From NCBI GenBank assembly GCA_947184155.2, contig CAMXCT020006751.1, positions 160,001 through 224,000 of the forward strand: DNA of 64,000 bases, given 5' to 3'. The DNA comes from Cladocopium goreaui. Lineage: Eukaryota; Sar; Dinophyceae; Suessiales; Symbiodiniaceae. Positions 26,714 through 48,190 of the stretch are shown here, in pieces. Position 1 is the stretch's first letter. Every line of letters begins with the position of its first letter. The notes under the pieces were generated by a model, which was not told where the DNA came from, searched no databases, and worked only from the letters and a program-made list of their open reading frames with translations. A program made the translations under genes and the position numbers.

Positions 26714-26725
26714 TGGTAGCGGAGC
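26714..26725 (+). promoter_or_regulatory. Candidate tRNA primer-binding site of a copia-type retrotransposon
   Basis: TGGTAGCGGAGC lies nine bases before the gag start codon. In Ty1/copia elements the primer-binding site begins TGGTA and pairs with the 3' end of a tRNA, often initiator Met. The preceding ...CTCCGCAT would then be the end of the 5' LTR, which usually ends in CA. I could not find the LTR start or a 3' LTR copy, so this rests on motif and position only. Confidence 0.45.
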
Positions 26726-26734
26726 TTGCGCTCC

Positions 26735-28470
26735 ATGACAGGGGAAGCGGCTGCGCCGTCAACAGGGGCGGATGCCCCAGTGGCAGGGCCACGTGAAGAG
26801 GCAGCGACCTCAGAAGCGGCTGCGCCGCCACCGGTCTCCGAGGCAGACTGGTCAGAAGAAAATAGCAGTGACAGCCACTGCAGAGAGGCTCGGGAACGCA
26901 AGGGCGAGCCACGGTCTAGAGAGGCCGAGAGCCCAGACCGAGAAAGAGGCAGCGCCTCACACCGAGGAAGATCCCCACGGCGAAAGGGGAAGAATAAGGA
27001 TAAGGGGTCCAAAGGACAGGAACGATCGGGCTCGCTGAAAGGAAAGAAAGGGGAGAAAGGCAAAGGCAGTAAGAGCCGAAGCCATAGCAAGGGCAAAGGA
27101 AATAAGAGCCGAAGCAAGAGCAAAGGCAAGGGCAAGTACACAGCAAGAGATGTCGAAGACATTGTCCGTAAGGCTGTGGACACCGCCATCCGGAAGGACC
27201 GAGAGGCTCGTGAGGAGACCTACCAGCCCGGATGGTACCCCTTTGAGGGAGGTGAATGGTACTTTTGGGATGGCAGCCAGTGGCATGACGAGGAATGGGA
27301 AGAATGGCAAGGAAGGAACCGTCCGAAGGAGCCGGATGCGCCGGAACCACGCAAGCCACCAGAGCCACCGAAACCGCCGTTGCCGAAACCCCTTAGCAAG
27401 CCGGAAGCTAAGAAGAGGCCAGTGGAAGGAGCTGCGACTCCGGGGCCATCAAGGCCAGTGAGGAGGGAGGCAGGGCCACCCAAGAAGGCAGAGGCCAGTG
27501 CGTCCCGTCCCGTGCCAAAGGAATGGACAGCGTTTCCAAGGGATGGAGATTTGGTATGTGGCAGATGCGGAAGGGCTTTGCCTCGAGGTGAGTTCGGCTG
27601 TAAAGCCTGCGGCAAGGAAGTTGCTGATCTCGCAAGACAGCGGGAGCAGCGGCTAAAGCCGAAGGATGAGGAGCCGGCAGCGCCGCCACCTCCGGCATCA
27701 AGTGGAAAGAAGAGCAACAAAGCCCCGAAGAAGGAAGCCCAACCGGCCAAGAAGCAGAAGGCAGCTCCTCCTCCTCCACCTGGAGATGATGACGACGATG
27801 GTGGAGAAGGCTCAGAAGGGTCGTACACCTACGAGTCATACTATTCATATGAAGGTGAAGAAGGCCAAGAGCAAGCTGAGGAGTCCCGACGGACCAGCGA
27901 CCCCACAATATCGGTGACAGACCGATCGGAACCGAGAAGGAGGCAAGAAAGGCCACCTCCAAGACCAAGAAGAGAGGAGAGGCCTGCCGATGACCGGCCG
28001 CGACCGGTGGATGAAAGGCAGCGACCACCCGAGAACCGGCGGCGACCGGAGCGTGGGCAGCGCCCCAGGGTAGAGCGTGCCGTGCGAGGCGGGGGCGGCG
28101 ACCCTCCAGGAGATGATGATCCAGAAGATGACACGGATCAAACATCCACGGCACGGACATCAGAAATCCGGGCGCTCTTGCAACAGAGTGCAAAGCCCGG
28201 AGACAGATCGAAGCCAAGCTTGTCCCAAGTGCGTATTGAAACGTTCCGAGGAAACAGAGCGCACTACAAGGACTGGAAGAAGATTATCGAAGCACAGCGT
28301 GCTCTGTATCGCCTTGAGGACAGCGAAATGGCTATGTTGATCTATCTGTCGTGCCAAGGAGAGCCAAGGCAAATCCTGAACCAATTGGAGGTTCAAGAAA
28401 TGCAAGAACCTGGCGGCCTCAACAGAATGTTGAAGCTTTTGGACGAATCTTTCGGTGCTCGTGCAGACGA
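26735..28470 (+). pseudogene. Copia-type Gag, 5' part, truncated by the 28.5-kb inverted repeat
   Basis: The ATG at 26735 lies just after the candidate primer-binding site and opens about 579 codons. Residues 20-140 are Lys/Arg/Ser-rich and RS-like. A Trp-rich segment (GGEWYFWDGSQWHDEEW) lies near residue 170 and is followed by Pro-rich sequence. A zinc ribbon CGRCG...CKACG lies near 273-296, then an acidic Tyr-rich stretch. From about 497 there is a Gag core with FRGNRAHYKDWKKIIEAQ and LLDESFGARADER. Families with this core package retrotransposon RNA. The frame runs three codons into the terminal repeat of the next element and stops at TAG 28490. The nucleocapsid, protease and pol parts are missing, so this is a 5' fragment. 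Confidence 0.75.
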
Positions 28471-28542
28471 AAGGACTTTTGGCTTCAAGTAGGTGTTAAC
28501 TTTTTTGAGGTAGGTGTTTGTTTTGTGCAAAGCACTGGCACC
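28471..28542 (+). repeat. Left terminal inverted repeat
   Basis: It starts AAGGACTTTTGGCTTCAAGT, continues AGGTGTTAACTTTTTTGAGG and TAGGTGTTTGTTTTGTGC, and ends AAGCACTGGCACC. GTGCAAAGCACTGGCAC is itself a short inner palindrome. The partner lies at 42242-42313. Confidence 0.92.
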
Positions 28543-29078
28543 TCAGATTCTTGGTTTGTAAATTTAGAGTGTTGCGATGCCAAAGGAAAAGCAAGCACCA
28601 CGTCAGAATATTTCACACTGAGGAGATTGGGTTAAATGTCAGAAGGAGATGCCAAAGCCAATGTCAGATGATATGTCAGAAAATGGCTGTCAATATGAGG
28701 AGAGGGTGGGGGGCTCACTGGAAGTGACATTTTTTTGTGAGAACGAAAGGAATGTTGATCTTTCAGAATCTTCCGTTGAGAAATTGATCATTGTTCACAG
28801 TTATGTTGCCTCTTGTGCGTGGAAGTGTCAGCATCACTTTTTGCATGATTTGCACTGGTTTGCAGCCGCCTGTTCTTCGCTATATAATAATAATAATAGG
28901 TAGCAGCATCTTGCGCTATATATAATTAATAGTAGCAGCTTCTTGAGCGCTATATTATAATTAATTAATAGTAGCGCTTGAAGCGCTTTTAAACATTCTG
29001 TGTTCTCGCGCAGCTAATTTTCCAGAGACCTCGAAACCGCGTTTTTCATATCATAGCGATCTTGCTGCTATCAATTCA
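28543..29078. other. Subterminal non-coding region with TGTCAGA words and hairpins
   Basis: TGTCAGA-like words occur at about 28637, 28662, 28674 and 28689 and may be protein-binding subterminal repeats. Three short hairpins follow at 28897-28990. I see no gene. Confidence 0.6.
28897..28990. repeat. Three short hairpin repeats of the AGCGCT family
   Basis: TAGGTAGCAGCATCTTGCGC then TATATAATT; AGTAGCAGCTTCTTGAGCGC then TATATTATAATT; and AATAGTAGCGCTTGAAGCGC then TTTT. Each is a 6-9-bp stem with a short loop set in TAAT-rich sequence. Related hairpins lie at 33018-33085, 35589-35618, 37480-37553 and 41931-41995, all inside the 13.8-kb element. Confidence 0.75.
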
Positions 29079-29615
29079 ATGGCTTACCATCAAGTGTGGC
29101 TGCATGCAGAGCAGTGGAACCTGTTGCCTCTGTTCCTCCAGACCATTTCTATGTTGTCAGAGGAGGAAAAAATTTTCATGGCAGATTTTGGCATGGCACT
29201 GTTGAAAGAATGCTGCATTGCTGCGCGCAAGTTGACTGACAACTTCCAAGAGACGCTGGACCTGATGCGTGCCGAAGTTTTTGTGGCGACATTTCGTGGC
29301 GTCATCGTCCGTGGAAGTTCGACTCACATTCCAGTGGCCGTGCTCAGGGAGACTGAAGGTGACAAGAGACGCTTCCGAGATTTGATTGCAGCTCAATCGT
29401 ATACGGTGCCTCGCTTGCAGCATTTGGCCAGCGATTTGAGACTGGCGTTACACTACATTGATGAGTGGGAGACAAACTGGCGTTGTTCTGAAGCTTTGGC
29501 TTCAGTCATGGAGCACGTCGAGGCCATACTGGACAACTTGCGGCTGAAGATCTTGGGATTGCTTCATGAACCGGAAGGAGAATATAACCCTGAGTTTGAC
29601 TTTGACTTCAAATGA
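29079..29615 (+). CDS. Hypothetical protein, 178 residues, element gene 1
   Basis: I do not recognise this protein. The ATG at 29079 is the first in a clean frame that ends at TGA 29615. The sequence is helix-rich, with Leu-heavy heptad-like stretches such as RLQHLASDLRLALHYIDEW and LRLKILGLLHE. It ends in an acidic NPEFDFDFK tail. It has no signal peptide, membrane segment or Cys cluster. It is the first gene inside the left terminal repeat, 340 bp before the transposase-like gene and on the same strand. Codon use resembles the neighbouring genes rather than the AT-rich surroundings, which supports a real gene. A structural or DNA-binding accessory role is possible but is only a guess. Confidence 0.6.
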   Translation: MAYHQVWLHAEQWNLLPLFLQTISMLSEEEKIFMADFGMALLKECCIAARKLTDNFQETLDLMRAEVFVATFRGVIVRGSSTHIPVAVLRETEGDKRRFRDLIAAQSYTVPRLQHLASDLRLALHYIDEWETNWRCSEALASVMEHVEAILDNLRLKILGLLHEPEGEYNPEFDFDFK

Positions 29616-29953
29616 GGATGGAAAAAAATTAGAGGCATGCCGCTTTAGTGCCAGCTGTAGTGCCACCACGTTGCATGCAGAGGTCATTTTCTGGGACGGA
29701 TCATTTCATTTTGGTTTGTTTCGAGTGCAAACGTTTTTCCATTCGGTGCAATCTGCAGCCGTTTTCAAAAAATGACGTTTGACAGCTCAACACGAGTCAG
29801 CGGACAAAAAAAAGCATGACGTAACTTAACATGATGTAGCAGATAATTAAATTCATGTGTGAGTGTTTTTGCGATAGTTTTTATAGGCTGACCATGATCA
29901 TGATGGTGAGAATGCCGCTACCTTAGGCACTTTCCACTGAACTCTCTGCTGCA

Positions 29954-31732
29954 ATGTCAGATACGCTGTCTGATGCACCAAGCTTGCCTCCTGATGTTGA
30001 ATCTGAAGATGATAACAAAGACGCATCTGAAGCAAGATCCGTAAGTCTTCCCTCTGACGTTCAATCTGATGCTGAGCCTGGAAATCTTCAAAAGCATTGC
30101 AGCTGCCGATTGCAATGTTACCTGAAGTTTGATGAAGCAGAAATCGAACATCGACGTGCTGAAAATTTGAAGGATCAGCAGGTTCGACTCCAGAATTTAT
30201 TTGGAAAGGTGAAATCTTTCGTGGATGCTTTATCTGTAAAGACTGCTCGCATAGATTGGCAAATGGGTGGCCAAAAAGTGTGCAGGCCCTTTTGGGAGTA
30301 TTGCCACTCAGTAGGCCACAAGCAAGTGGACGACATGGTGAAATTGGCTAAGCTTGGACATGCTGCTCTCCCTGAAAAAGGCGCCCGGATGCCCAAGGAG
30401 AAGCCTCGCATGGATGAGGCTGATGTTTGGTTCCTCAACTTATATACAGGTCTTGCAGAGCTGACACCAGTGGAAGATGGTGGCCATCGCCATGTGGAAG
30501 AACTTCCTGATGCAGATCAAGTGCATGAAGTTGTCCACGATGTTAGCCATCCACTATATTCAATGTCTGTTGGTGTTGGCAACCAGGGGGCATTGGTCCC
30601 GAAGCGCTTCCTCAATCAGGAGAATTTGGCTTCTTTGTGGCATGTCTACGAGCTGAACAAGTCGGATGAGCCACGTGTGTCCCGGGATACCTTCACCAAA
30701 GCTTTCAATCGACACTGGAAAAGGATTTTATGCTTCAAGGGTTATGGTCAAGGAGTACGATGTCAAGTTTGTGCTGATTTTGATGAGAGGCGTTCGCAGC
30801 TGACTTCAAAGAAGGAGCGCCAGGAGATTGACGAGTTGAAGCAGCAGCACCTCAACAGATGTGACATGGACCGATCTGTCAATGTCAGGGGCAACCGATT
30901 GTCAAAGCAGGATTCAAATTTTAAGATGGAGAACTCCTCGACTAGCTTCCTCAAGGTGTTGGTGGACGGGATGGACCAGGCAAAATTTCGATGTCCCAGA
31001 AACTTGAAAGCCAATGTAGCCTTCGCCAATGTCCAAAGGCCGGCCTTGCATCTCACTGGAGCTGTGGCAATTGGCCTCTGCGAGGTTTATTATATTCTTG
31101 CGCCTGACGCCAAGAAGGACAGCAACATGGTTGCAACTTGCTTGGCCCACCTTTTGGACAGATGCCAACTTGTTGTCGAAAATAGAGGACCAGATTATTG
31201 CTTGCCAAGACATCTCATCATTGGAGCGGACAATTGCACCAGGGAGACGAAGAATGCCTATTTGGCCCAATTCGGTGCCTTCCTTGTGGGAAGGGGTTTA
31301 TTTGATTCAGTGGAGTTTCAGTTTATGGTCACTGGCCACACAAAGAATGAGCTGGATCAGCGCTTTTCAAGCGTTGCGACGATTTTGAACAAGGCTGGCA
31401 CCCTGGAAACGCCATTGCAATTTGCCAATTACATGACGCACCATGTTAAGCCAGCAATGGCAACCGAGATGCAGGTGGAGGTCTTGGATGCTACTAGGGA
31501 TTGGCAAGCTTTCTTTGGACATTTGAGCATGCACGTGCAAGGGCTCACAGCGACCCACCTTCAGCCTGATTCAAACCATGTTTGGCGCTTTGTCTTGCGA
31601 CAGCAAATTGACCGTGCCCAAATGGTGGAGAACCACAACCCAAACTGGAAGGATTTTCCTGAAGACCCCAGGGATGTTGTGCTGATTCTCAAGCAGTGCC
31701 TTGGTTTTTTCCTGTTCTTCAAAGTCGTTTCA
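29954..31732 (+). CDS. Transposase-like protein with DUF7869-type motifs, exon 1
   Basis: The exon starts at ATG 29954. Residues 1-45 are acidic and Ser-rich and lead to a Cys group HCSCRLQCYLKF near 50-60. Near 270 a CQVCADF knuckle is followed by a His/Arg-rich helix. From about 335 come the blocks VDGMDQAKFRCPRNL, ALHLTGAVAIGL, KKDSNMVATCLAHLL, LIIGADNCTRETKN and TGHTKNELDQRFS. In DUF7869-type proteins these blocks carry spaced Asp/Glu residues, thought to form an RNase H-like fold; a transposase role is my inference. The exon ends in phase 0 before a strong GTATGTGAG donor at 31733. Without splicing the frame reads 11 more codons to a stop at 31768. Confidence 0.65.
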
Positions 31733-32183
31733 GTATGTGAGCAACCGCAAAAACCCCGGCAATACTAAATATGTATTCGACGGACATTGGTTTATGGAAA
31801 TTGATGGAAATTGTTAAAAACACGAGGTAAGCGATGGGACCTTCCCAAATTAGCGATACCCCTTTTCAAGGTTATGTCATCATATTTCTCTAATATCCAC
31901 ATTAGCGATACCCAAATATCACATATTATTCATAGTTCATCACACATATATATATATATATAAATGCAGCAGTTTCCTGCAAGCGATACCCCCCAAGTTT
32001 ACCATATATCATTATTGTACAAACGTGTGGTAAGCGATGGGACCTTCCCAAATTTGTGGATGTCCTTTCCGTGAACCTAGGGTTTTCACAATCGCTCATG
32101 TTGTACCTTTTAGTTCTTGGACCGTCCCATGGTTGAATTACCCGGTTCTCACCGCTGCTGCAATGAAATGTATTTTTTTTCAG
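31733..32183 (+). other. Predicted GT-AG intron with internal direct repeats
   Basis: The donor GTATGTGAG and the acceptor TTTTTTTTCAG join two open frames in phase 0. Inside, GGTAAGCGATGGGACCTTCC occurs twice, at about 31827 and 32031. The word AGCGATACC occurs three more times (about 31852, 31902, 31982), and a (TA)n run is present. The repeated GGTAAGCGATGGG looks like a second potential donor. Confidence 0.55.
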
Positions 32184-32790
32184 ACTGCCAGGTTCATGTC
32201 CTCGGCCGAAGCGTCGCAACCACCTCAGCTGATGCTTCCAGCTCAGCTTCTTGGCAGTTTCAAGCGGGACCTCTTGACGATTGCCGACAGAAGGCAGTGG
32301 TCTGAAGATCAGTTGGAGCAGTACCTGAAGACTGCTCAAGCCGTGTCGTCGGATCCATGGAGACTCTTTGAGGCGCAGGCATGGCTGGAAGGCTTGTGCC
32401 ATGCTAACAAGCATCGGCTGTCCAAGGAGCCTCCAGTCTTTTCTTTGGTTTTGCAGGAGCATGAAATGCCTGAGATCGTCACAGATTTGCCAGATGAAGC
32501 CCTGTTTCAGCCGGATCCGGCACCTCGTCGTGTCAGAGTGTTGCTGAAGCGACCTGCTGCTGCAGCCAAGTCATGTCGACAGCCGAAGATGAGAAGACCT
32601 GCAGCAGCTCTGCCAGGTGCTGCAGTTGCAGCACCAGCAGACGCTGCAGTAGCCGCGGCGGCCAAGCCTGCTGCAGCACCTTCTGGATCGCGACCGCCCA
32701 TGCGCAGACCCGCGGCTGCAGAACCCTCAGACCGTGCCAATGCTCCTCCGGAGTCACATGTGGTTGAGGCTTCTTTAGGGAATTACACAT
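32184..32790 (+). CDS. Transposase-like gene, exon 2: helical domain and KRPAA segment
   Basis: The frame opens right after TTTCAG and reads TARFMSSAEASQPPQLMLP. A helical region of about 100 residues includes SFKRDLLTIADRRQWSEDQL and FEAQAWLEGLCHANKHRL. It is followed by an Ala/Pro-rich tail with the motifs LLKRPAAAAKS, MRRPAAALPGAA and MRRPAAAEPSD. KRPAA runs recur in many dinoflagellate repeat-associated proteins, including the ones at 33815 and 57607 here; their role is unknown, and the basic pattern suggests DNA contact or nuclear targeting. Splicing from exon 1 is in phase 0. The exon end is less certain: I place it at a GTCAATG donor (32791) because this leaves the phase needed for the next exon. 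Unspliced, the frame ends at 32816. Confidence 0.55.
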
Positions 32791-33156
32791 GTCAATGTTC
32801 GGAGACTCTGATATGATGTCTATGACAATATTATTGGGCTTCTGTTTCAGCTAGGGGCGAGACTTCAAACTTTTCAATGTCAAGGTATACCACTATCTTG
32901 AAGATGTAAAGGGAAAGAAACAGTCGGTGATCAGAAATTCAGACAATGTTGCTGCAGTTGCATCAGAGCTGGCGATCCATTGATATATTATAATATGTAT
33001 TATGATTTTTGGCATCGTAGGTAGCGCAGAGCGCTCTATAATGGGTCCCCTATTAAGTAGGTAGCGCAGGACGCTTTATAATTATATCATATGATAATAT
33101 CCCTAACACATTTATGACCACGTAAAGTCACCAATTTGGCTTGGCCCGCTAGGCAG
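32791..33156 (+). other. Probable intron carrying two hairpin repeats
   Basis: The borders GTCAATG and CTAGGCAG would join exon 2 to the Cys-cluster exon in frame. Two hairpins of the AGCGCT family (33018-33043 and 33058-33085) lie inside. Confidence 0.35.
33018..33085. repeat. Two short hairpin repeats of the AGCGCT family
   Basis: TAGGTAGCGCAGAGCGCTCT then ATAAT, and TAGGTAGCGCAGGACGCTTT then ATAATT. These are the cleanest members of the family. Confidence 0.8.
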
Positions 33157-33317
33157 ATTCAGAGAAGATCGAGCGCTATGGATGCTCCAGGTGCAGAAGC
33201 GCCAGGATTGGGTGCCTTCAATGTCGAGCCTGGGTGGAACAGAAGAGGCGTCGTTACGTTTTGGATTCAGCTGGCCACATTTGTCAGCTTAAAGCTGACG
33301 CTGAGGATGTTGATTGA
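33157..33317 (+). CDS. Transposase-like gene, candidate exon 3: Cys cluster
   Basis: After an AGGCAG acceptor the frame reads SEKIERYGCSRCRSARIGCL and then QCRAWVEQKRRRYVLD before a stop at 33315. The pattern GCxxCR...GCxxCRxW matches the Cys cluster that ends the KRPAA protein at 57607-58936 (GCARCRHQRGCCPSCWKKKG). It probably binds zinc. Finding it directly downstream of a KRPAA exon supports one spliced gene. Another exon may follow, since the last 15 codons look less typical. Confidence 0.45.
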
Positions 33318-33392
33318 ATATCCCCAGCCAATCTTCAAGATTTTGCATTTGGATTGAAAAGAGAAAATGAGATGCCTTGCTGCAGATTGCTT

Positions 33393-33565
33393 TGCGATGT
33401 TGATTTGTGATTGAATCCTGAAGTGCTTTGGCAAAGAAACTTTCTTAGACATTAGCCAAATCATGTTTGAGATGTCGCTTTGTGATTGAATCCTGAAGTG
33501 CTTTGGCAAAGAAAGTGTCTTAGACATAAAAAAAAACATGTTTGAGATGTCGCTTTGTGATTGAA
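33393..33565. repeat. Tandem repeat of about 73 bp, 2.3 copies
   Basis: TTGTGATTGAATCCTGAAGT followed by GCTTTGGCAAAGAAA and a CATGTTTGAGATGTCGCTT end occurs twice, with a partial third copy. Confidence 0.85.
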
Positions 33566-33600
33566 GCGCTACTGGCCAAGAAACAGTCCTGCCCGAGGAA

Positions 33601-33756
33601 AACACAATTTCCTTTGAAAGGGGTCCTCGGAGTGAAAGGGGTCCTGGGTCCGCGCGCGCGCGCGCGTCAAGGGCTCCAAATTGAAGCTAGCATGCGCGCG
33701 CGCGCGGACCCAGGACCCCATTCACCCCGAGGACCTCTTTCAAGGGAAATTTTGTT
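33601..33756. repeat. Large GC-rich hairpin with about 64-bp arms
   Basis: The left arm (33601-33666) contains TTGAAAGGGGTCCTCGGAGT, GGGGTCCTGGGTC and (CG)8. The right arm (33693-33756) is the complement: (GC)n, GACCCAGGACCCC, CCCCGAGGACCTCTTTCAA. The loop is about 26 bp. AAGAAACAGTCCTGCC occurs as a direct repeat outside both arms (33578-33593 and 33792-33807), so the hairpin may be an inserted element or a duplication product. Confidence 0.85.
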
Positions 33757-33814
33757 GGAAACTCGATTGTTTGTGAGTTTTTTTTGGATCAAAGAAACAG
33801 TCCTGCCTCGCACC

Positions 33815-34099
33815 ATGAAAAGACCAGCCTCCCTGATGGCAGCACCTGCTCCTATGTGCCGACCAGCTGCGGCTGCAATGCTACCAAGCCCATCAGACCA
33901 GAGCACGGTGGCTCTCCTTGAGTTGGAGCGTTTTTTTCCAAAGGGGGAGTTGAAAAATGCACAAGGCCAAACCTATACGGAGTACTGTCGCGAGCTGCGC
34001 CATGAATGGGTTGTTGAAAAAGACCGCAATGAGACCTTCCCGATGGTCAATGCAGCTGGAGAGTTCCTTGCTTTTGAACTATCATTCTTTATTTCTTAG
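33815..34099 (+). CDS. Short KRPAA-type protein or exon, 94 residues
   Basis: The ATG at 33815 gives MKRPASLMAAPAPMCRPAAA, the KRPAA signature, followed by a more ordinary stretch with LLELERFFPKGELKNAQGQ and YTEYCRELRHEW. It ends FFIS-stop, which reads like run-through into an intron. It is probably the first exon of a further gene of the element; no downstream exon could be placed. The ATG lies eight bases after one copy of the direct repeat that flanks the giant hairpin. Confidence 0.45.
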   Translation: MKRPASLMAAPAPMCRPAAAAMLPSPSDQSTVALLELERFFPKGELKNAQGQTYTEYCRELRHEWVVEKDRNETFPMVNAAGEFLAFELSFFIS

Positions 34100-34337
34100 C
34101 ACCCGGGTGTGTCTCCCTTGTGCTAATTTGTCAATCTCCCATGGATAAATTGCTACCATTTAGCAAATTGTTTTCTTTACCGTTTTGTGCCACTGTGGCG
34201 AACATTCTCTGACAAGGAGCAGTTTGGTTTATCTTGTGAGATATGCGATCATGCTGATGATGAGTTTGAGAACATGTTTGGAGAAATCCTTCAGTTTAAC
34301 AAACAAAATCTTTAAAATTTAGGAACAACCGAGACAT

Positions 34338-34573
34338 TTTCATGTTAGGAACAAACCCAAGTAGGAACAATCCTTTTATATTAGGAACAAACCCAAGTAG
34401 GAACAAACCTTATATTTTAGGAGATCTCCTAAGTAGGAACAAACCTTTTATTTTAGGAACAAACCCAAGTAGAAACAAACCTTATATTTTAGGAACAAAC
34501 CCAAGTAGGAACAAACCTTTTATTTTAGGGACAAACAGTTTTTTTTGGTTAGGAACAAACCTATTATTTTAGA
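34338..34573. repeat. 36-bp tandem repeat, about six copies
   Basis: Units of TAGGAACAAACCCAAGTAGG plus AACAAACCTTTTATTT. The array is open in one frame (GTNPSRNKPFIL) only because the unit is 36 bp. Confidence 0.9.
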
Positions 34574-34804
34574 GACTTTTTTTTTTTTTGTGGAACTCAT
34601 GCTGTGAAGCAGCAAGGTTGGAACGGGTGTCGACTGCTGACTGGACAACATACAAGAGAATCCATTCCAGCCACGATGGTTGGAAGTTGCTTCAAGGGCG
34701 CTATCGTTGGCGCCGGGACTGGCAGCAGCAGTGGTCTTTCCAAAATGACCCCCAGGAAAACCAGAAGAAGTGATGCTGCGAAGCGATTTTGTTTTCCCTG
34801 TCTT

Positions 34805-35100
34805 TAGATTTTTTTGAAATCACTACTGCGTAGAGTCAAAGGAAAACAGGGCAGCTTCTTGCCTCCAACTCTGTGAAAGTTTTTTTGAAATCATTACTGC
34901 GCTGAGTAAAAGGAAAACACTGCAGCTTCGTGCCTCCAACTCTGTGACAGTTTTTTTTTAAACCACTACCGCTGAGTAAAAGGAAAACAGGGCAGCTTTT
35001 TGCCTCCAACTCTGTGATTTTTTTTTTTACCACTACCGCTGAGTAAAAGGAAAACAGGGCAGCTTCTGGCCTCCAACTCTGTGAAAGTTTTTTTTTTGAA
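34805..35100. repeat. Tandem repeat of about 73 bp, four copies
   Basis: Each copy carries GAGTAAAAGGAAAACAGGGC, AGCTTCTTGCCTCCAACTCT and GTGAAAGTTTTTTTT. The T-run and a TGAAATCA segment vary between copies. Confidence 0.9.
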
Positions 35101-35135
35101 CATACTTGAAGCATCCATGATTTTGCAGTAGAAGG

Positions 35136-35156
35136 CTAAACCCTAAACCCTAAACC
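35136..35156. repeat. Short interstitial telomere-like tract (CCCTAAA)n
   Basis: CTAAACCCTAAACCCTAAAC is almost three units of the plant-type telomere repeat, which dinoflagellates also use. It lies inside the mobile element, next to the end of the 73-bp array. Confidence 0.75.
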
Positions 35157-35588
35157 TTGTAGAAAAAAAACGGGCAGCATTTTGTTTACATTGATATGTT
35201 TTTTTCTCTTCTGAAATATGTACTTCACATGGATTAGCTTCACCAATTTTCACGGGAAATCCTGGGATATCCCCTGAAATCTCGATGGGGATCTGGCCAA
35301 CAAAAATTTCGACCTGGATTTCACGGTCGTTCCTGGGATAGCCGCTGAAAACAGTCAAGTGTGCAGAGATCTGTTGGATAAGCTTAGCTTGAACTGCAGC
35401 TACCTGATCACACATTTCTCTGACAACAATGGTTTTTAAGAGGCCATCCTGGGATAGAGCAGGAAGCCACCCACAGAGATACAGCTGCAGCTTTCACAGT
35501 CAGTCTTGCTGTCCCTCGATTTTTTCATCTGAACTGCTGTTAGCGTGTTAGGGACGACCATTACCTGGGCACAGTCCAAAACTATATT

Positions 35589-35618
35589 AATAGGCAGCGC
35601 TTGACCCCCAGCGCTTAC
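35589..35618. repeat. Short hairpin repeat of the AGCGCT family
   Basis: TTAATAGGCAGCGCTTGACC then CCCAGCGCTTAC. It is a degenerate member set in AT-rich sequence. Confidence 0.55.
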
Positions 35619-35659
35619 AGTAAGGGGAATGCATCAACTGTTTTCTCTGTGGATTATTT

Positions 35660-36584
35660 TTTTTGGCATGCCAGTCAGTGAGACGAACCGTTTATCTTGT
35701 GGCTCACTGTGTTTTTTTCTTGGCATACCAGTCAGTGAGATGAACCGTTTATCCTGTGGCTCACTGTGTGTTTTTTTTTGGCATACCAGTCAGTGAGATG
35801 AACCGTTTCTCTTCTGGTTCACTGTGGATTTTTTTTTTGGCATACCAGTCAGTGAGATGAACCGTTTATCTTGTGGTTCACTGTGTTTTTTTTGGGCATG
35901 CCAGTCAGTGAGATGAACCGTTTCTCTTCTGGTTCACTGTGGATTTTTTTTTGGCATACCAGTCAGTGAGATGAACCGTTTATCTGGTGGCTCACTGTGT
36001 GGATTTTTCTTCGGCATGCCAGTCAGTGAGATGAACCGTTTCTCTTCTGGCTCACTGTGGTTTTTTTTTGGGCATGCCAGTCAGTGAGATGAACCGTTTA
36101 TCTTGTGGTTCACTGTGGTTTTTTTTTGGGCATGCCAGTCAGTGAGATGAACCGTTTCTCTTCTGGTTCACTGTGTTTTTTTTTTTGCATACCAGTCAGT
36201 GAGATGAACCGTTTATCTTGTGGTTCACTGTGGTTTTTTTTGGGCATGCCAGTCAGTGAGATGAACCGCTTCTCTTCTGGTTCACTGTGGATTTTTTTTT
36301 TGGCATACCAGTCAGTGAGATGAACCGTTTATCTTGTGGTTCACTGTGGTTTTTTTTGGGCATGCCAGTCAGTGAGATGAACCGTTTATCTGGTGGCTCA
36401 CTGTGTGGATTTTTCTTTGGCATGCCAGTCAGTGAGATGAACCGTTTATCTGGTGGCTCACTGTGTGGATTTTTCTTCGGCATGCCAGTCAGTGAGATGA
36501 ACCGTTTATCTGGTGGCTCACTGTGTGGAATTTTTTTGGGCATGCCAGTCAGTCAGATGAACCGTTTATCTTGTGGCTCACCAG
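35660..36584. repeat. Minisatellite of about 59 bp, 16 copies, partly alternating types
   Basis: Each copy has GGCATGCCAGTCAGTGAGAT, GAACCGTTT and a CACTGTG plus T-run end. Copies differ in the middle: TATCTTGTGG (type A), CTCTTCTGGT (type B) and TATCTGGTGG (type C). Types A and B alternate through much of the array, and type C occupies the last copies, so the array grew partly by dimers. Confidence 0.92.
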
Positions 36585-36766
36585 GCCCATGAGACGAGGC
36601 AGTGGCAGGAAACAATTCAGATAAACTCAAATTGACTTGAGCATCAGGTAGGAGCAGCAGGTGCACCCAACTAGTCACTTCTTATGAAGTTCCCATTTCA
36701 TTGACCTATTATTTTTTCTCTCCAGTGCTCTGTTTCTGCGTCTCTGTGCTGCCAGTTTTTCCTGCC

Positions 36767-37348
36767 ATGGCTGACGACCTGTCCTCCACTGAGTCAAAGT
36801 CAGATTCCAATCGGAAACTGTCAAAGCGTCAAAGGAAACTTGCTGCCGCTGCAACCTTGCGCATCCTCGAGCAGAAGCTTCAGAAGCGCCCAGTGACTCA
36901 CAAAGGACGCCACTATGATTCCTTGGAATGTTTGTGGAACTCCAAGGTATCTTCAGAACCCAGTCAGCCTGCACAACCTGGCCCTGCTGCAGCAAATGCC
37001 TTGAAGAGGCCTTTGTCACCAGACGATTCTAGTCGAGAAGTTCGAAGTCGAGGAGATGAAACTGGTGGTATGCAGTCAGCTGACCAGTCAGCCGCACCAG
37101 CTGAAATGCCTGCTCATGACGAAGGCATCCCAAGTGCGACTGCATCAGCTTCGGGTAGCAAACCTTCAGCTGAAAGCCAGCCTACTTCATCGATCTCTCC
37201 TTCTTCAAAGGCAGCACCTAGGGTAGTGCCAGCTCTTAGACCTGTAGAAAACCCAGCTCCCAAAAGTGGACGCAGAAGAGGCAAGAGAGCAGGTCAGAAC
37301 GTTTTTTTCTACAATGCGTTGCATGCGTTGCGCAATGCTTTTCAGTGA
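36767..37348 (+). CDS. Ser/Ala-rich hypothetical protein or first exon
   Basis: The ATG at 36767 lies downstream of pyrimidine-rich sequence and starts MADDLSSTESKSDSNRKLSK. Residues 20-60 are basic and helical (KRQRKLAAAATLRILEQKLQ), and residues 60-170 are disordered (Ser, Ala, Pro, Glu). A basic GRRRGKRA end follows. A CAG|GTCAGAAC donor lies at about 37291, after which the frame turns untypical, so coding probably ends there by splicing. Function is unknown. It lies upstream of the large three-exon gene on the same strand and could be its 5' exon, but I could not place an acceptor in phase. Confidence 0.5.
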   Translation: MADDLSSTESKSDSNRKLSKRQRKLAAAATLRILEQKLQKRPVTHKGRHYDSLECLWNSKVSSEPSQPAQPGPAAANALKRPLSPDDSSREVRSRGDETGGMQSADQSAAPAEMPAHDEGIPSATASASGSKPSAESQPTSSISPSSKAAPRVVPALRPVENPAPKSGRRRGKRAGQNVFFYNALHALRNAFQ

Positions 37349-37724
37349 AAAAAAAATGGCATGAGGGATCCATTTGAAGTTGTTGTGTCAGAAAGGCATG
37401 AGCAGTCACAGAATCAGAAACAGCAGCTCAGAATTCAGTTTTGGCATTTGCACGGTTTGCCTCGGTTATCTTCCCTATGTAGGTTAGCGACCGTTTGGGC
37501 GCTTATTAAATATGAATATGTAGGTAGCGACCAATTGGGCGCTGTAATAGAAATAATAAATAATAATAATGACAGTGAAATTGGAAAATATGTTTGTCAG
37601 AGCAGCATCAAGTGCTGCAATCTTTTGTCGTTTTGCAACTTGATGGCTCATAGCAGCTTGGAGTTTCAAGTGGAGCTGGCATTGCGTTGCTTTGTCAGGC
37701 TGACTAGCTCCCCCCAATTCGAAC
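37349..37724. other. Non-coding spacer with two hairpin repeats
   Basis: It contains the hairpins at 37480-37512 and 37520-37553 and an ATAATAATAAT run. It may be an intron or the 5' region of the next gene. Confidence 0.5.
37480..37553. repeat. Two short hairpin repeats of the AGCGCT family
   Basis: TAGGTTAGCGACCGTTTGGG then CGCTTATTAAAT, and TAGGTAGCGACCAATTGGGC then GCTGTAATAG. Both follow the family pattern TAGGTAGCG-loop-CGCT-AT-rich. Confidence 0.65.
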
Positions 37725-40700
37725 ATGGCAATGGTGTCTGATGCACCAGAGGTTGAGACAATTGAAATTGATGATGAGTGTGTGGATGATGCGTCCCAGT
37801 TCGCAAAGGAGTGGCTGGCCAAAATGAGAACCATTCTTCAGAACTATCCAGCTGGCCCAGGAAGCTACTTGGAAGACAAAATGAAGACGGCAGCAGACAA
37901 GGCTCGTTTCGCTACTTGGCTGCTGGAAACATGGCCTGAAAGACCAGATATCTGCTATCACCACGACCAAGTAGTTCCCAGTGTGCTGGAAGATGAATTG
38001 GCCCAGTCGCCACCACTTGCTATCCATGTGTCGTCCTTCAGCTGGACCGATGGCTGTGGGGTGAAACCTGCTCCAGGACGTGATTTGGCTTTGGGCCTCA
38101 TGGCAATGTACCTCAAGGATGGCTTCATAACCAGCGGAGATGTGATTCTGATGGCTCAGCCATTGGCAGTTGAGAAGGCAGCTGGTCTTCCCAGCCTTTG
38201 GGGATCTGAAGAGTCAGCACTTAAGCCTTTTAGCCTGGGATATTTGAAAGGACGTGCTCGACTTACCAGTCTCTTCGCTCTTCTTTTGTCAGTCTTTGAA
38301 GAAGAGGTCTCCTTGGATGACTTGAAAAGCTTCTGCCCGAAGTTATTCGATTCCGTCTCAGTCATTTGGGTTCAGCATATGCGGCAAAACAGCAAGGAAG
38401 ATGAGGTCTTGTGCAACCTGAAGTTGAGCACGAGAGGATCCCTTAGAAAGGCAGCCAACCTCATCCAAATTGCCTTCATGGTCAGACGTCTGTTGGCTTC
38501 AGGAGGCACCGACTACACTACTTTCCTGCGAAAGTACAACCAGCAGTCTGTTGCGGCTCACCAACTTCGCGGTCGCAAGCAAACTGCACTGAAGCTCCTC
38601 TTCGAAAGCGCTCCCAAGGACTACTTGGATTTTTTTTTAAGTTATAGTGTTTGTGTGACACCACCCCTAACTTTGTCACTTCTCCAGGGAAAAATAGTAG
38701 ATAAGTTTTTCTTTATGTGTACTATCCTTTTCTCGCTGTTCAGGACGTGCTGGATGAGATCCTCAACCATGTTGGAACTCTTGGATGGGAGAATTGTGCT
38801 TGGACTGAGGAGAATTTGGCTTCAAAACGTCTCTTCCCAGGACACGTTTTCCCAGCCAAGAACAGGAAGTGGCAACAGAGATTGAGAGTCAGCAACAGGT
38901 CCTTGAGAATTATGGTTCTCAGGATTCATTGGGAGCAGGAGCACCAGTCTTGTGAGAAGCGCAGCCAGAAGAAGCCGGATGACAGAGCTTGTGAGCTACT
39001 GGCTGAAAAAGCAGCTTGCCTCGTTTCCTTAGCAGATGAGTTTTGCTCTGAGCATCCCATCACCATGGAGACAGTCCAGAAGAAGATACTGGATGAGTGG
39101 TCCTCTGGATGCAAGCGCATTGACATGGAGCTGGCCGCGCAGTTACTGGAGAAGTCCGAATCCTTTGCCATTGCGACCCACATGCCTTGTTTCAAGGCTT
39201 TGCTGGAGGAATCTCTTTTTCGTGCGCCGGTGTCTTCTTCCCAAGAGGCAGGGGCTCTTTTCTTGACGTGGTAGTCGTTGTTTGATGAGTAGCATAACCC
39301 ATAATAATGACGAAAACAATGATAAGATAATAATTTCAAGCTTTATTCCCTCCCTCAAAGTTTTTGGTCTACTAGTCGGCGTTGCAATGAAGTTGCCTTG
39401 ATGATGGCCTCTGCACCAAAACACCTTTTCTGTTGAATCTTCTCCCCAATCATTAGGATAATTGTGAGTTTGTTTTGTTCCACAATGCTGGCAGGTGGAA
39501 ATGCGAGACAAGCTGAAGAGAGATGAGTTCGACCATGTTGTGAAGAAAATGGACTATGACATCAAGGTCTTCGAAATTTGGCAATCGAAGGTCGCATCAG
39601 TGGCAATGGCTCGCCAGCATGCGAAGCAGGAACATGTCGTTTCTGAACACAGGAAAATCGTGGAATCAGTGGAAGCCTATCTTGATGGTTGTGTTCGCTT
39701 CCTGTGCTGGGAAGGAGTCAACAAGGGAAGTGATAGCATCGTTCCACAGGTCCTCTCATTTCGCATGGAAATTTTGAGAAAGCTACGCAACCAAAACACA
39801 GCTGGTGCAGCTGCAGATGTTCCTACCTTGGTCCTCATGAATTGGACCGCACCCTGTCTGTTTCCAGCTGGACGGCAGAATGATCACATCAACTGCCTTG
39901 CGTGGGCGTTGCACGACAATACCAACTCGGCTGCAATCATTTTCGCACCTACCTTTTCGTACCAGAAAGGAAAAACATTCCTGGAGGAAAATGCGTGCAT
40001 GCAGCTTCTGGCACAAGGAGGGCACAACTTGGACCATCAGTTCAGCGTCTTATTTTCTGACAGATGCGATCAGAGAGACAGCCGACCTCTGCTTTACCCT
40101 GCTCGTTGGGCCTTCCCAGGTCATGTGGTTGACCTTGGAAAGACAAATGCCTTCTTTCAGTCGGAGCTTCGCAAGGCTGGGCGAACTGATCCTTGCAAGC
40201 AAATGGCCGCCAAGGACTTGAAGGAAATGGAAGACATGGCTGATGACAGCCTCCCAAGCACAACTTCAAGCAATCACATCTCTGGAGCAGCCAAGCATTG
40301 TCAGTTTGGCCGTCCTGCTGCAGAAGAGGTCTTTCGCAAGGCCTTCAACCAAGTTGACCTGGAGAAATTTCCAGCTGTGCTGATCGTGGACCTCTTCCCC
40401 CGAGTTGGTGATTTTGCAGGTGCTTTTTGCCGCCTCCGGACCCAATTGAATGCTGGGACCAGCTTGTTCTACATTGGTGTCGGAGAGAAGGCCAAAGAAT
40501 TGGAATGGCTTCGCGCGACTTTGCTCGAAGAGTTGGTGGAGAAAGTGAAGCTGGAAGGCTTTCAAATTCCTGGCGCTCAGCCATTTCAGAAAGAAGTCAA
40601 CCCAGACCTCCTGGATGCACTTCCCGCAATTCCAATTACCAATCTTCTTGTTGTGACAGGTGAAGGTGAAGATCGAAGTCTGGTGCTGCCAAAGCACTTG

Positions 40701-41555
40701 ATGCTGAAGTGGCGTTCTGATGAAGATTTCGGCGATGAATTTTCCAAGTGGCTTGACGCATTTTTGGAAAAGTATTCAGTGAGTGAAGATGCAGACAATT
40801 CTTCACCCAACAACAAGAGACAAAACAGTGAAGAAAAAACATCGGAGGCTGAACCGAGCCCAAAAAGGTGTCGAGTGGAGGAAGTGCCTGCAGAATGCTT
40901 GCTTCCTTGTGACAAAATTGCAGAGACGCTTCTATTTGAGACGAAGTTTGGAGGAAAAGATACCATTGGATTCCAGATCCGCACCAACCACCAGCTCTAT
41001 TTGGTCAACCAGACCTCCCATGAGCTCAGTCTCAAAGCAATGTCGCCTTTGGTTGGATTTGGCAGGGGATCGTTCAAGTTGTTCAAGGAAGGTGACACAC
41101 TACCTGAGAAAGCTTTGCTTTTTCACATTGCTTCCTCAGATGCCTTGGTTTGCCTCAACGGTGCTGTGCAGACAATTTCAGAAGTGCTATTCAACCAAAG
41201 AAAAATCAAGCCTGAGGCTACTGTCTGCTACCACAAGGCTACACCTTCTGGGCAAAAAACTGATGGCCAGACATTGTTTGACTTCAAGTTGACCCACAAA
41301 ATTTGCTTTGTGCCGCCGACGAAACGAGATGGAGCAGATGAAGGAGCAGAAAAACCCGGCAAAGAAGAGACTATATCCTTCACCAACATCGCCTCACGCG
41401 AAACAGCTGGTACTTTTTGTGATTTGCAATGCGCAAGTCTGATTTGGCATGTGCGCTGGACAGTCAAGGGGCTGCAGCCGCTGAAGCCCATGATCCATTT
41501 AACCAAAAAGCTTTGCCTTGCTGCAGGTCAGTGCTGCAAACTCAATAAGCAATGA
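37725..41555 (+). CDS. Large three-exon element gene of unknown function, about 1,155 residues
   Basis: Exon 1 is 37725-38627, exon 2 is 38744-39247 and exon 3 is 39495-41555. The first intron has GA-AG borders (GATTTTTT...TTCAG) and the second GC-AG (GCAGGG...GGCAG); both join frames in phase 0. GA and GC donors are known from dinoflagellates. Exon 1 is a helical region after an acidic N-terminus. Exon 3 contains VLMNWTAPCLFPAGRQNDH, AIIFAPTFSYQKGKTFLEEN and VLIVDLFPRVGDFAGAFCRL. The DLFPRVGD block followed by a beta strand and YIGVGE could be a SAM-binding Rossmann motif, which would make NWTAPC a candidate catalytic loop in permuted order; this is inference only. An NKRQNSEEK nuclear-localisation-like linker precedes a C-terminal beta-rich region. 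A CAG|GTCAGT donor at 41527 suggests that another exon may follow. Confidence 0.65.
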
Positions 41556-42241
41556 CATTGCAGTTTGGACCACAGGTAGCATTGAAAATGCCTACGATTT
41601 TGATATGCAGATGGCTGCCCCAAATAGGTGACACTCGAAAACATTTTGTCCACACAACCTTGCTATCAATTTTTGCTTCTCGAAAGAAAGCACCATCTGA
41701 CAGGACATTGCGTTGATGTCCCAATCTTGGGTCTTTTGCTTATCGACATAGTCGACATAGTGCACATCGTGGCCGACAAAAGGAACCAGCTTGAGAGTCA
41801 TTCTTGCATCATTGTCAAGAGATTTTCAGACATGTGCTTTTATATGTATTGTTTCGCTTCAGTACTCACTCGACAGATGCGCTGGCTGTTGACAATCATG
41901 TGGAAGTTTCATAGTAACAGTAATAATAATAATAGCGCTCTTAGCGCTGACCACTTTATAATAGTAATAGCGCTCTTAGCGCTGACCACTTTATGCCAAT
42001 GGGGTATGTCTGATCGTTGCTTTCTCATATTCAGCCACGAGCAACTGCAAGCCCAAACTTATTGTTATGTTTGGACTTTTGGATTTTATCGACAGAGAGT
42101 TTAAATCTCCAATGACAAAACCAGTTTTCTGACATTCATCTGGCATCTCCTTCTCTGGCATTTAGTCTACAATCAATTCAATCTGACATATATTCTGCCA
42201 TGATACCAGACTGAGACTGTAATACAAAAAGATTCTGAAGT
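41556..42241. other. Right subterminal non-coding region
   Basis: It holds a tandem pair of hairpins at 41931-41995. Near the right end, TTCTGACATT, GGCATCTCCTTCTCTGGCAT and ATCTGACATA are the inverted counterparts of words near the left end of the element. No gene is seen. Confidence 0.6.
41931..41995. repeat. Tandem pair of AGCGCT hairpins
   Basis: AATAGCGCTCTTAGCGCTGA then CCACTTTAT occurs twice in a row (33-bp unit). Confidence 0.85.
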
Positions 42242-42313
42242 GGTGCCAGTGCTTGGCACAAAACAAACACCTACCTCAAAAAAGTTAACACCTACTTGAA
42301 GCCAAAAGTCCTT
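42242..42313 (-). repeat. Right terminal inverted repeat
   Basis: Read on the minus strand from 42313 it begins AAGGACTTTTGGCTTCAAGT and continues like the left repeat, with a single A-to-C difference 59 bases in. It ends at GGCACC, after which similarity falls off. Confidence 0.92.
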
Positions 42314-44361
42314 ATCAGTCAATCGACGCCAAGTTGTCAATCGCATTGTCGAACGTGATAGCCCAAGCCGGTGATGTTGCTCGTCATGTAGCAATTAAAC
42401 TAAGATTGAGAACACAGAGTCATAGTCGAAGAGGAACCTATGTTATGGGACGAGAAATTTTGGCTATGATTCTGGAACACTTCAGGACACCAGGTCAACG
42501 AGAGACAGCCTTCACCATGGAGCACATCGTATCGATGAAGTATCTCGGTGACTCCAACCTGGAAGTGTTCTACGAGAAGTGGATGGAGATGGTGTCAAAC
42601 ATGATGCCGGATGATGTACCTCCTGATGATTGGCTTCGTGACTCTCTGTACAAGAAGATTCGGAATTCGAGTCTCATGATGTTCGACATCAAGCAGTACG
42701 AATCATTGATTGAAGGAGATCAAAGACGAAGCTATCGCTACCTGTTGGACGTCATCGAAAGGCACATATCCAGGATCAGAGAAGACAAGCATGTGGCCGC
42801 CAGAGAGAAGTACGCAAGAGACTTTGCAGGTGGTGGCAAACCCACTACTCCTGCACCAAATCCAACTGCTGCTGCACCAGATGCCAATCCGAAGGCGAAG
42901 GCTAAAGCCAATCCCAAGGAGAAGGCAGCACCTAAGGCGAAGGCCAAGGCTGAGGCAGCTCCAGTTCTACCATCACCTCAACCAAAACAGCATGCAAAAG
43001 GAAAAGGGAAAGGTCAAGGGAAAGGAAGCGGACGGTCAAACAGCCGAAGTGCTAGTCCTAGATCCAAGAAGAAGATCCCATGTCATTTCCATTTCATCAA
43101 GAAAGCATGCAGAAAAGGAAAAGATTGTGAATACAGTCACGACCAAAAGGTGTTTGATGCGAACAAGAACACGAAAGGTAATGGTCGAAAGCCAGGAACT
43201 CCGAGAAGTCAATCTCCAGCGAACAAGACCAAGAAGATTGATGAACCATGCTGGCACTGGGCCAAGGGCAAGTGCCGATACGGAGACAAATGCAACAAAC
43301 GTCACGATCCTCATCTCTTCAACACTGCTCCGAACACCGAAGCATCAAGCTCAAAGGCTACTCCTGCACTTGTCCATGAATGGAGTGATGACGAAAGGAC
43401 ATTCCACAAGGTTGCATCGAATGTCGTCAAGAAGAAGGTCAGATTTGATGAGTCCAAGACTTGCATCCAAACGTACGTGAAGAAGGACGTCGTGAAGTGC
43501 AGCCGGAAATCCCAGACCATCCCCAAAGGTCATGGTAAAGTCGGCAAGCCCACCGATCAGATAAGGCAAGATGAGCAATGGTCTTATTCATGCAGACTAG
43601 CATCGAGCCGAGGGAAGGCAATGGCTATCCTGATCGATGAGAAGGGCGAGTACAGTGACATTGATGAAGTCCTAGTCATCGTCGGCCCCAGTCTGGACAT
43701 TCTGATCAGGTTCGACATCGAGGACGGTGAGATATCCAGGGAGGTCTTCGTGGAGAACTATGTTCAACATGTCGAGGGTCGATATGGCAAAAGGGGTAAC
43801 ACGATGTGTATCACTGTTCCTGTTGAAGAAAGAGATAAGAGATTCATATTGGATTCTGGAAGTGGTCATGATCTTATCTCATCCACACGAATAAGTAGAA
43901 TGGATCTCCCAACATATGATGATAAAGTCGTCAACTTCCATACAGCAAACGGGGTAACATGTTCGACCAAACGATCAAGTATCAAGTTCGAGGCATTCAA
44001 CGAACCAGCAGAAGCTCACATCCTGGAAGACACGCCTTCCGTAATCTCCATGGGCAAGCGGTGCGTTGACCTTGGCTATTCGTTCGTATGGCCGACTGGG
44101 AAAACTCCTTTCATGTTAGATCCCAATGGCAACATCATCGAAATGACTGTCAAAGACTACATTCCTTATGTGAGTGTCGATCAAGAGAAGAGAAAGTTAA
44201 AATCATCCTGCGTGGAAAAGATCATGGCAGCCTTGATGATGAGTGCTCAACGTCAGAAGGCGAAGGTCTTTTGGTTATTGATGGAGAGAGTGGGGATGAG
44301 CTTGAGGATCTTTCCGACGCCGTTGGACGATCCGATGGTGAATCTCCCAAGAAATCAATAA
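42314..44361 (+). pseudogene. Copia Gag (3' part) and protease
   Basis: The frame is open from the terminal repeat (YQSIDAKLSIAL). A Gag core covers the first 170 codons, with EILAMILEHFRTPGQRE, NLEVFYEKWMEM and QRRSYRYLLDVIERH. A Lys/Ala/Pro linker follows. Two CCCH fingers are seen near 43078 (CX8CX5CX3H) and 43250 (CX7CX5CX3H), the usual nucleocapsid fingers of dinoflagellate copia elements. RFILDSGSGHDLIS at about 43840-43880 is an aspartic protease active site (DSG). The frame leaves the true coding path near 44190 and reaches a stop at 44361, while the downstream frame takes over. The 5' part of gag is missing. Confidence 0.75.
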
Positions 44362-47267: not shown

Positions 47268-48190
47268 ATGACTTAAAGCTGGCAGGACCGGAAGAGAACC
47301 TGACTAAGGGTTGGGAGATGCTCAGATCAAAACTCAACATCGAGCCCGAGACTGACTTGGGGCTCTACCTTGGTTGTGTTTTGAGAAAGGGATCTACCAA
47401 ACTTCATGATGGTACCCCGGTATCGACCATGACCTATGACATGGAAGGTTTGTTGAAACTGTCGGTTGAGAAGTACTTGGACATTGTTGGAAAAGATACG
47501 AAGCTGAAACACGTATCCACTCCAAGTTTACCTGAAGAAACAAAGAAACATAAGTCTAGAGCACCATGTCCCGGGAACCCCAAGAATAAGAAAGTATGTC
47601 CATGGTGTACTCATGAATTTGATCCGGACGCTCCATTGTTTTATGAACAAGGAACCCAAGGGGAAGACGTCTCGCCTGGGGAGTCTGAGAGAGGTGCATT
47701 GGCACCACACGCTGCCAGCGTGCTGATGAAGCTGCTGTACGCGGCAAGGATTGCTCGTTTCGATCTGCTTCGTTCCATTAATTCCCTGGCCAGGAATGTA
47801 ACAAAGTGGACCATTGATGACGATGCAAAGTTGTATCACTTGATGTGCTACGTGAATTCCAGCCTATCTAAGAGAATGACCGGATGGGTTGGGGACAACT
47901 TCAATGACTTGACATTGTCTTTATTTGCTGATGCTGATTTTGCAGGGTGTGCCCAATCTTTGAGATCTACTTCAGGGTCTCATATGCATATTCAGGGTAA
48001 CCACACACGGTTTCCTTTGTCCGGGGGCAGCAAACGGCAAGGATGTGTAAGCCATTCAACGCCTGAGGCTGAAATCGTGGCAGCCGATGTCACCCTCCGT
48101 ACTATGGGTTTGCCCGCTATGAGCATTTGGGAAACGCTGACGGGAAAGTCGCCCAAATTATTGTTCCATGATGGTCAGGTCGGGTCGTAA
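47246..48190 (+). pseudogene. Copia reverse transcriptase (YVDD part) and RNase H
   Basis: The catalytic YVDD lies at 47261-47272 in this frame (LLVIYVDDLKLAGP), one base out of step with the upstream frame. KLNIEPETDLGLYLGCVLRK follows, as expected for copia. RNase H is seen as LFADADFAGCAQSLRSTSG and SKRQGCVSHSTPEAEIVAAD, with its acidic residues present. The frame ends with FHDGQVGS-stop, where copia proteins usually continue FHDDN; the next frame resumes with the expected RNase H tail. Confidence 0.8.

Follow-up and report, generated by a model that had tools for sequence, protein, structure and literature searches.

Probable recent activity of a multi-gene DNA transposon family with a DUF7869 gene and a methyltransferase-fold partner in Cladocopium goreaui

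Analysis of a 64,000-nucleotide stretch of the dinoflagellate Cladocopium goreaui (assembly GCA_947184155.2, contig CAMXCT020006751.1, positions 160,001 to 224,000, forward strand), hereafter the window, located at 28471 to 42313 an element that is bounded by terminal inverted repeats (TIRs). It carries a putative transposase gene matching the Pfam family DUF7869 and, downstream, a partner gene whose product is modelled with a methyltransferase fold. The ends and these two genes comprise the following features.

28471..28542, + strand: left TIR, starting AAGGACTTTT, with the GTAGGTGTT motif twice, about 22 bp apart
28637..28680, + strand: left subterminal words, TGTCAGA three times (28637, 28662, 28674) and GAAGGAGATGCCA at 28642-28654
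29954..31695, + strand: putative transposase exon 1 with DUF7869; invariant D338, D341, D426, H462 and D468 (numbering of the exon-1 frame)
31696..32191, + strand: inferred GT-AG intron of the putative transposase gene, with an insertion of about 360 bp (31738-32097) that none of the 7 other long copies has
32192..32816, + strand: putative transposase exon 2; 788 aa in total, with a basic KRPAA/MRRPAA tail
37731..38618, + strand: partner exon A, N-terminal region without a known domain
38744..39247, + strand: partner exon B, after an inferred GA-AG intron
39495..41555, + strand: partner exon C, after an inferred GC-AG intron; full protein of 1150 aa
39657..40574, + strand: amino-methyltransferase-fold domain (model residues 53-358)
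42128..42188, - strand: right subterminal words, mirrored, TGTCAGA twice (42128, 42182) and GAAGGAGATGCCA at 42141-42153
42242..42313, - strand: right TIR

The two arms (28471-28542 and 42242-42313) match inversely at 71 of 72 nucleotides, as stated in the original prediction, which had been made from the letters of the window. When up to 3 mismatches were allowed, the 31-base core of the arm occurred twice in the window, once per strand, and was never found in 100 shuffles. The mirrored subterminal words were also recovered. Within the window, GAAGGAGATGCCA is confined to the two ends, with a single occurrence at 28642 and its mirror image at 42141. TGTCAGA has three occurrences in the first 210 bp of the element and two, in mirrored form, in the last 190 bp, though the word is common and matches 11 times on each strand of the window.

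The window's own genome (1,165,616,438 bases in 6202 contigs) was searched for further copies. The 72-bp arm gave 25 matches. The possibility named with the original prediction, that the repeat would stand mostly alone or at random distances, was not what was found: 20 of the 25 make up 10 inverted pairs with spacings of 6.6-13.8 kb, each pair enclosing a DUF7869 match. Eight pairs are long (13,190-13,843 bp) and two are short (6,648 and 6,851 bp). The predicted size of 13.8 kb holds for the window copy, which is the longest, but not for the family, since the other long copies measure 13.2-13.5 kb and two fall at 6.6-6.9 kb. The eight long copies diverge from each other by 0.25-0.9%. Among the 5 unpaired matches, sequence next to two (C4453 and C295) runs on into the same element at 99% identity; the other three (C2669, C5994 and C557) are only 81-91% alike and are therefore older, all five having been read in part. 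In the short copies most of the middle is gone and the joints show overlaps of 3-9 bp, which fits an origin by internal deletion during gap repair. Three copies (C6062, C2994 and C1642) have in common a variant at position 17 (ttcCagtagg), in the left TIR only, which perhaps marks a subfamily.

Exact 4-bp direct repeats bound 6 of the 10 pairs. These target-site duplications (TSDs) are AACT, CCTG, CTAC, CCAA, ATCA and ATTT, with no common sequence. For copy C626, the two flanks were joined through a single ATCA. The joined sequence was matched over its full length of 136 bases at all 40 loci scored (from 295 candidates), perfectly at 4 of them, and an empty site therefore exists in a multi-copy retroelement. 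For C626 and C5608, taking 1, 4 or 7 bases out of the joined flanks opens frames of 1332 and 1036 codons, against 668-686 codons at other offsets. This frame test was weaker for C1785, with a small gain only (712 against 666-680 codons), and for C6062, C5956 and C724, in which the longest frame fell at other offsets. C1785 seems to be a nested insertion in the 5' part of another DUF7869 gene.

Both sides of the window copy adjoin open frames of retroelement-like genes.

26720..28470, + strand: left flank, open frame of a retroelement, probably gag-like, cut at the element end
42314..48289, + strand: right flank, CCCH-finger/aspartyl-protease retroelement, with site and sequence as in the right flank of C626

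Over the 6 kb compared, the right flank differs from its counterpart at C626 by 13 mismatches and 2 gaps. Within the element, the right two thirds of the window copy come closest to C626, which does not hold for the left third. A clean insertion was considered for the window copy and rejected: no TSD is present, and the left and right flanks come from different places. Because the duplication is missing and the flanks are mismatched, this copy is a chimera of two copies, formed by recombination or by an assembly switch; its joined flanks give a frame of 1249 codons at 1, 4 or 7 by chance. C3328, which has a left flank in common with C1785 (2 kb, 99.9%), is likewise chimeric by recombination or assembly, and these two are the least number affected. 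C2994 and C1642 have no flank in common with other copies over the 2 kb compared on each side.

Of the genes in the element, one has a Pfam match to DUF7869, and its structure model shows a DDE/RNase H fold resembling Mos1, Metnase and integrases, including retroviral ones, which bears out the transposase-like gene of the original prediction. The junction of the two exons was taken from the relatives P0013 and P0015. In an alignment of 42 sequences (the window and 41 of 82 relatives; the row of P0015 has a deletion between catalytic positions), D338 on strand 1, D426 after strand 4 and D468 at the start of a later helix are invariant, as is D341. H462, placed before the third aspartate, is also invariant, and the position three residues before it is neither C nor D in any of the 42 rows, so that a C/DxxH signature is absent. 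None of the 42 members matched a named transposase Pfam model at E<=0.1 or an integrase Pfam model, in line with the predicted lack of fit to a standard cut-and-paste family. On the strength of the resemblance to Mos1, Metnase and integrases, of the invariant aspartates in the three catalytic positions and of the lack of a match to any named transposase model, we read the protein as a putative DDD transposase not described before. No stop interrupts exon 1 in any of the 8 long copies, and relatives with 50-58% identity have retained long frames. The insertion of about 360 bp in the intron (31738-32097) is private to the window copy and holds a 37-bp direct repeat at 31815 and 32018. A search of genome contigs gave a single match, a contig labelled as a Flavobacteriaceae metagenome-assembled genome (MAG; NZIP01000002.1) with a DUF7869 fragment at 40-420, probably eukaryotic DNA binned with the MAG.

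The partner protein is modelled with the fold of a beta-class DNA amino-methyltransferase, with a motif-I-like stretch C-terminal to the position of motif IV. Beta-class DNA amino-methyltransferases have [DNS]PP[YFW] as their canonical catalytic motif. In the rows covering the site, which was judged from the model, N-[WA]-[TA]-A-P-[CS] is present at the corresponding strand end instead. No Pfam match to the C5 cytosine methyltransferase family PF00145 was obtained in the window's open reading frames (ORFs) or in 17 partner members (the window frame and 16 relatives). The predicted introns of the partner gene lie at 38619-38743 (GA-AG) and 39248-39494 (GC-AG); such introns are also found in dinoflagellate host genes. 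A dinoflagellate host is likewise suggested by what a few of the relatives are named. Across putative transposase exon 1 and the partner exons of the eight long copies, 25 nonsynonymous and 15 synonymous changes were counted. The resulting ratio of nonsynonymous to synonymous polymorphism (pN/pS), 0.47, is weak evidence of constraint on these exons.

In the genome searches with the two genes, 73 of 422 DUF7869 candidates and 65 of 130 partner candidates were scored. The partner gave 70 matches, which merged into 49 loci, 39 of them outside the ten elements. At 22 of these 39, a DUF7869 match lies 4.3-9.8 kb away, always upstream and on the same strand, with partner proteins 23-57% identical to that of the window; some of the 22 pairs are near-identical copies of each other and the independent cases are fewer. 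Database relatives of both genes were found on contigs of matching size (90796, 206794 and 246598 bases), presumably the same contigs. The DUF7869-partner pair is an old association. Related elements were delimited at some of these loci. The one at C4541 is 14,571 bp long (transposase 51% and partner 57% identical), with TIRs of about 72 bp like those of the window and a TTCT duplication. C877 and C6179 make up a family of 15.7 kb in length whose TIRs, about 61 bp long, start AATCTTTG; the duplications, read by eye, are TTTT (within a T run) and TCAA. In C877 a 410-bp subterminal inverted repeat (93%; positions 2100-2509 and 3655-4060 of the extracted pieces L034/L036) was seen just inside the TIRs. 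Six DUF7869 matches with near-equal scores, 26% identical to the window protein (C489, C979, C1916, C4317, C5822 and C1335), are probably another multi-copy DUF7869 family.

The element is best read as part of a lineage of multi-gene cut-and-paste transposons that ranks at superfamily level and was active recently. We put the probability that it represents a young family of such DNA transposons, one among several that a DUF7869 lineage has in this genome, at about 0.85. The multi-gene TIR transposon of the original prediction is upheld by the ten inverted pairs, their low divergence, the duplications at six of them and the one empty site. Several observations weigh against this reading: 4 of the 10 pairs (the window copy, C3328, C2994 and C1642) lack a TSD; among the candidates scored, 17 of the 39 outside partner loci have no nearby DUF7869 match; and C861/C5916 and C1813/C3650 share long sequence without a TIR or TSD at the ends of the shared stretch. 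For KDZ, Academ, PHIS and other named superfamilies, the comparison covered Pfam transposase models, none of which matched at E<=0.1, and the lineage may be separate from them. It is somewhat short of an even chance that DUF7869 represents a new DDD transposase superfamily whose dinoflagellate branch is an obligate two-gene system with the methyltransferase-fold protein, either as a DNA-binding subunit or as a true modifier. A literature search covering titles and abstract openings, with Repbase Reports outside its scope, found no description of DUF7869 or of the element among the entries listed. Searches against NCBIfam returned nothing informative, and sequence searches of the PDB gave no useful match and at most 5 weak unrelated ones.

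An unlikely but serious alternative is that DUF7869 belongs, as a clade, to a DDE superfamily that has a name already (Academ, PHIS, Ginger, MuDR, KDZ and others) and whose transposase has diverged past sequence detection. The DDE fold is common to many families, and 4-bp TSDs are also given for Ginger1 and within PHIS in PMC10045372; the Ginger1 length agrees with ours, and retroviral integrases are among the fold matches, yet no integrase Pfam model matches. The invariant histidine before the third aspartate recalls the hAT/P/MuDR/Kolobok/Dada group, for which a C/DxxH between the second and third catalytic residues is described in a section of PMC9587614, but the absence of C or D at the -3 position in 42 of 42 rows speaks against membership. 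The failure of all 42 members to match a named model counts against the alternative as a whole, and the duplications are not the TTAA of Kolobok- or piggyBac-type targeting. Much further from likely is that the element is an integrated virus or derives from one (Polinton-like or related), although its size, its several genes, its long TIRs and its enzyme with a DDE fold recall Polinton-like elements in outline. One ORF had a sub-threshold match to a Totivirus coat protein (E value, 0.27; 9.7 bits against a cut-off of 25), taken as chance. Polintons have TSDs of 6 bp, according to PMC10045372, not the 4 bp seen here, and the element ORFs scanned (9 with Pfam, 8 with PHROGs) contained no significant match to a viral family and no protein-primed DNA polymerase or packaging genes. 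The search patterns hit 27 and 81 stretches of viral contigs, none confirmed as a relative of either protein, and a library of viral structures yielded no match to the transposase model at E<=0.001. On these grounds the viral reading was rejected.

That all copies are inactive relics of a dead family with decaying ORFs is improbable. Two copies are internally deleted, C5608 has a stop codon in partner exon C, and the copy in the window lacks a TSD and has an insertion of its own, but a stop-free exon 1 in every long copy, divergence below 1% and the persistence of long frames in relatives at 50-58% identity argue against this reading. The partner could also be passenger cargo or a host gene carried along with no role in transposition. 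The 17 loci without a nearby DUF7869 match and the degenerate catalytic motif favour this; the order and strand, constant in all 22 pairs across 23-57% protein identity, point to a long-kept role, as does the occurrence of both genes on the database contigs of matching size, and we consider it doubtful. A role in the transposition complex is favoured for the partner, tentatively as a DNA-binding co-factor derived from a beta-class amino-methyltransferase and without the canonical catalytic motif. That it truly methylates transposon DNA is our second choice and has a distinctly smaller chance.

Comparison with known systems helps to define the element. Mos1/Metnase-like DDE/D TIR transposons (Tc1/mariner and relatives) likewise have an RNase H fold with an acidic triad, TIRs and a target duplication, but here the duplication is 4 bp instead of TA, the TIRs are 72 bp, the elements reach 13-16 kb with a second large gene, and no sequence similarity was detected. 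CcrM, M.RsrI, Adineta vaga N4CMT, MTA1 and METTL3 (beta-class/MT-A70) resemble the partner in fold over about 200 residues, whereas the partner lacks [DNS]PP[YFW], has long extra N- and C-terminal regions and shows no sequence match to them. If transposition depended on the partner, these would be, to our knowledge, the first DNA transposons that need a protein derived from an amino-methyltransferase. KolobokP, as outlined in a section of PMC9587614, is also a eukaryotic DDD/E transposon with a second enzyme gene, but it has long terminal direct repeats, a TTAA target as in Kolobok and a His-Me finger endonuclease as that enzyme; Kolobok termini are RR..YY, a pattern that those here (AA..TT) follow as well. 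KDZ, Plavaka and other fungal transposons carry TET/JBP dioxygenases, as reported in part of PMC12730594. There, too, a transposase travels with a protein of a DNA-modification family, but the transposases are of other families and the protein is a methylcytosine oxygenase, in contrast to the methyltransferase fold with a degenerate motif here. Symbiodinium retrotransposons bearing DNA methyltransferases (DNMTs), namely LINE and DIRS elements with C5 cytosine methyltransferases of PF00145 according to part of PMC5890265, are also dinoflagellate mobile elements with a DNA-methyltransferase-type protein; ours differs in being a DNA transposon, and its partner protein has the fold of an amino-methyltransferase and no PF00145 match.

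In the mechanism we propose, the DUF7869 protein would bind the element ends, the likely sites being the subterminal words and the two copies of the GTAGGTGTT motif, spaced by about 22 bp. It would then excise the element and join it to target DNA with a 4-bp stagger and little preference for target sequence, and excision gaps that are incompletely repaired may give rise to the internally deleted copies. The partner most likely would join the transposition complex as a DNA-binding co-factor. The analysis offers a probable function, that of a DDD transposase, for a family of unknown function that is present beyond this genome, and the copies, duplications and empty site show that a multi-gene DNA transposon family jumped recently in it. 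Like the fungal TET/JBP transposons and the DNMT retrotransposons, it also provides a case in which mobile elements are linked to proteins of DNA modification. The signature of DUF7869 and partner could serve as a simple search key for similar elements elsewhere.

Four further features lie inside the element.

29079..29615, + strand: gene 1 ORF, 178 aa from the first ATG (frame open from 28965), no known family
33530..34099, + strand: uncertain ORF, intact in some long copies but not all
35643..36581: tandem repeat array with a period of about 58-60 bp, its length varying between copies
36767..37348, + strand: gene 3 ORF, Lys/Arg-rich, a possible exon with weak support

The frame of gene 1 stays open over 216 aa in each of the 10 copies, with 3 relatives found and no significant match in Pfam, PHROGs or NCBIfam. 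Gene 3 is a 235-aa frame in the 8 long copies, with a pN/pS of 1.29 on 5 changes. Both are open but little supported as genes, and neither they nor the ORF at 33530 or transposase exon 2 had a tblastn match in the ends of the other families. Of the several accessory proteins suggested by the original prediction, one well-supported partner with the methyltransferase fold stands, and the rest are these two ORFs. Its claim that all genes run on one strand holds for the genes with relatives, all on the + strand, although - strand ORFs exist opposite them (e.g., 31926-32570, 37704-38213 and 40266-40775).

The surroundings of the element contain additional repeats and long frames. A 33-bp tandem repeat of about 79 copies at 20399-23062 shows extreme strand asymmetry (GC skew of about -0.8). 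Long, nearly continuous + strand ORFs of up to 1817 aa at 42289-57325 form a large retroelement-like unit with CCCH fingers, an aspartyl protease and a weak SH3_retrovirus match; no reverse transcriptase Pfam match was found in the ORFs of this unit that were scanned. At 60309-61937, long overlapping open frames occur on both strands of a GC-rich region (61%) with 39- and 63-bp tandem repeats.

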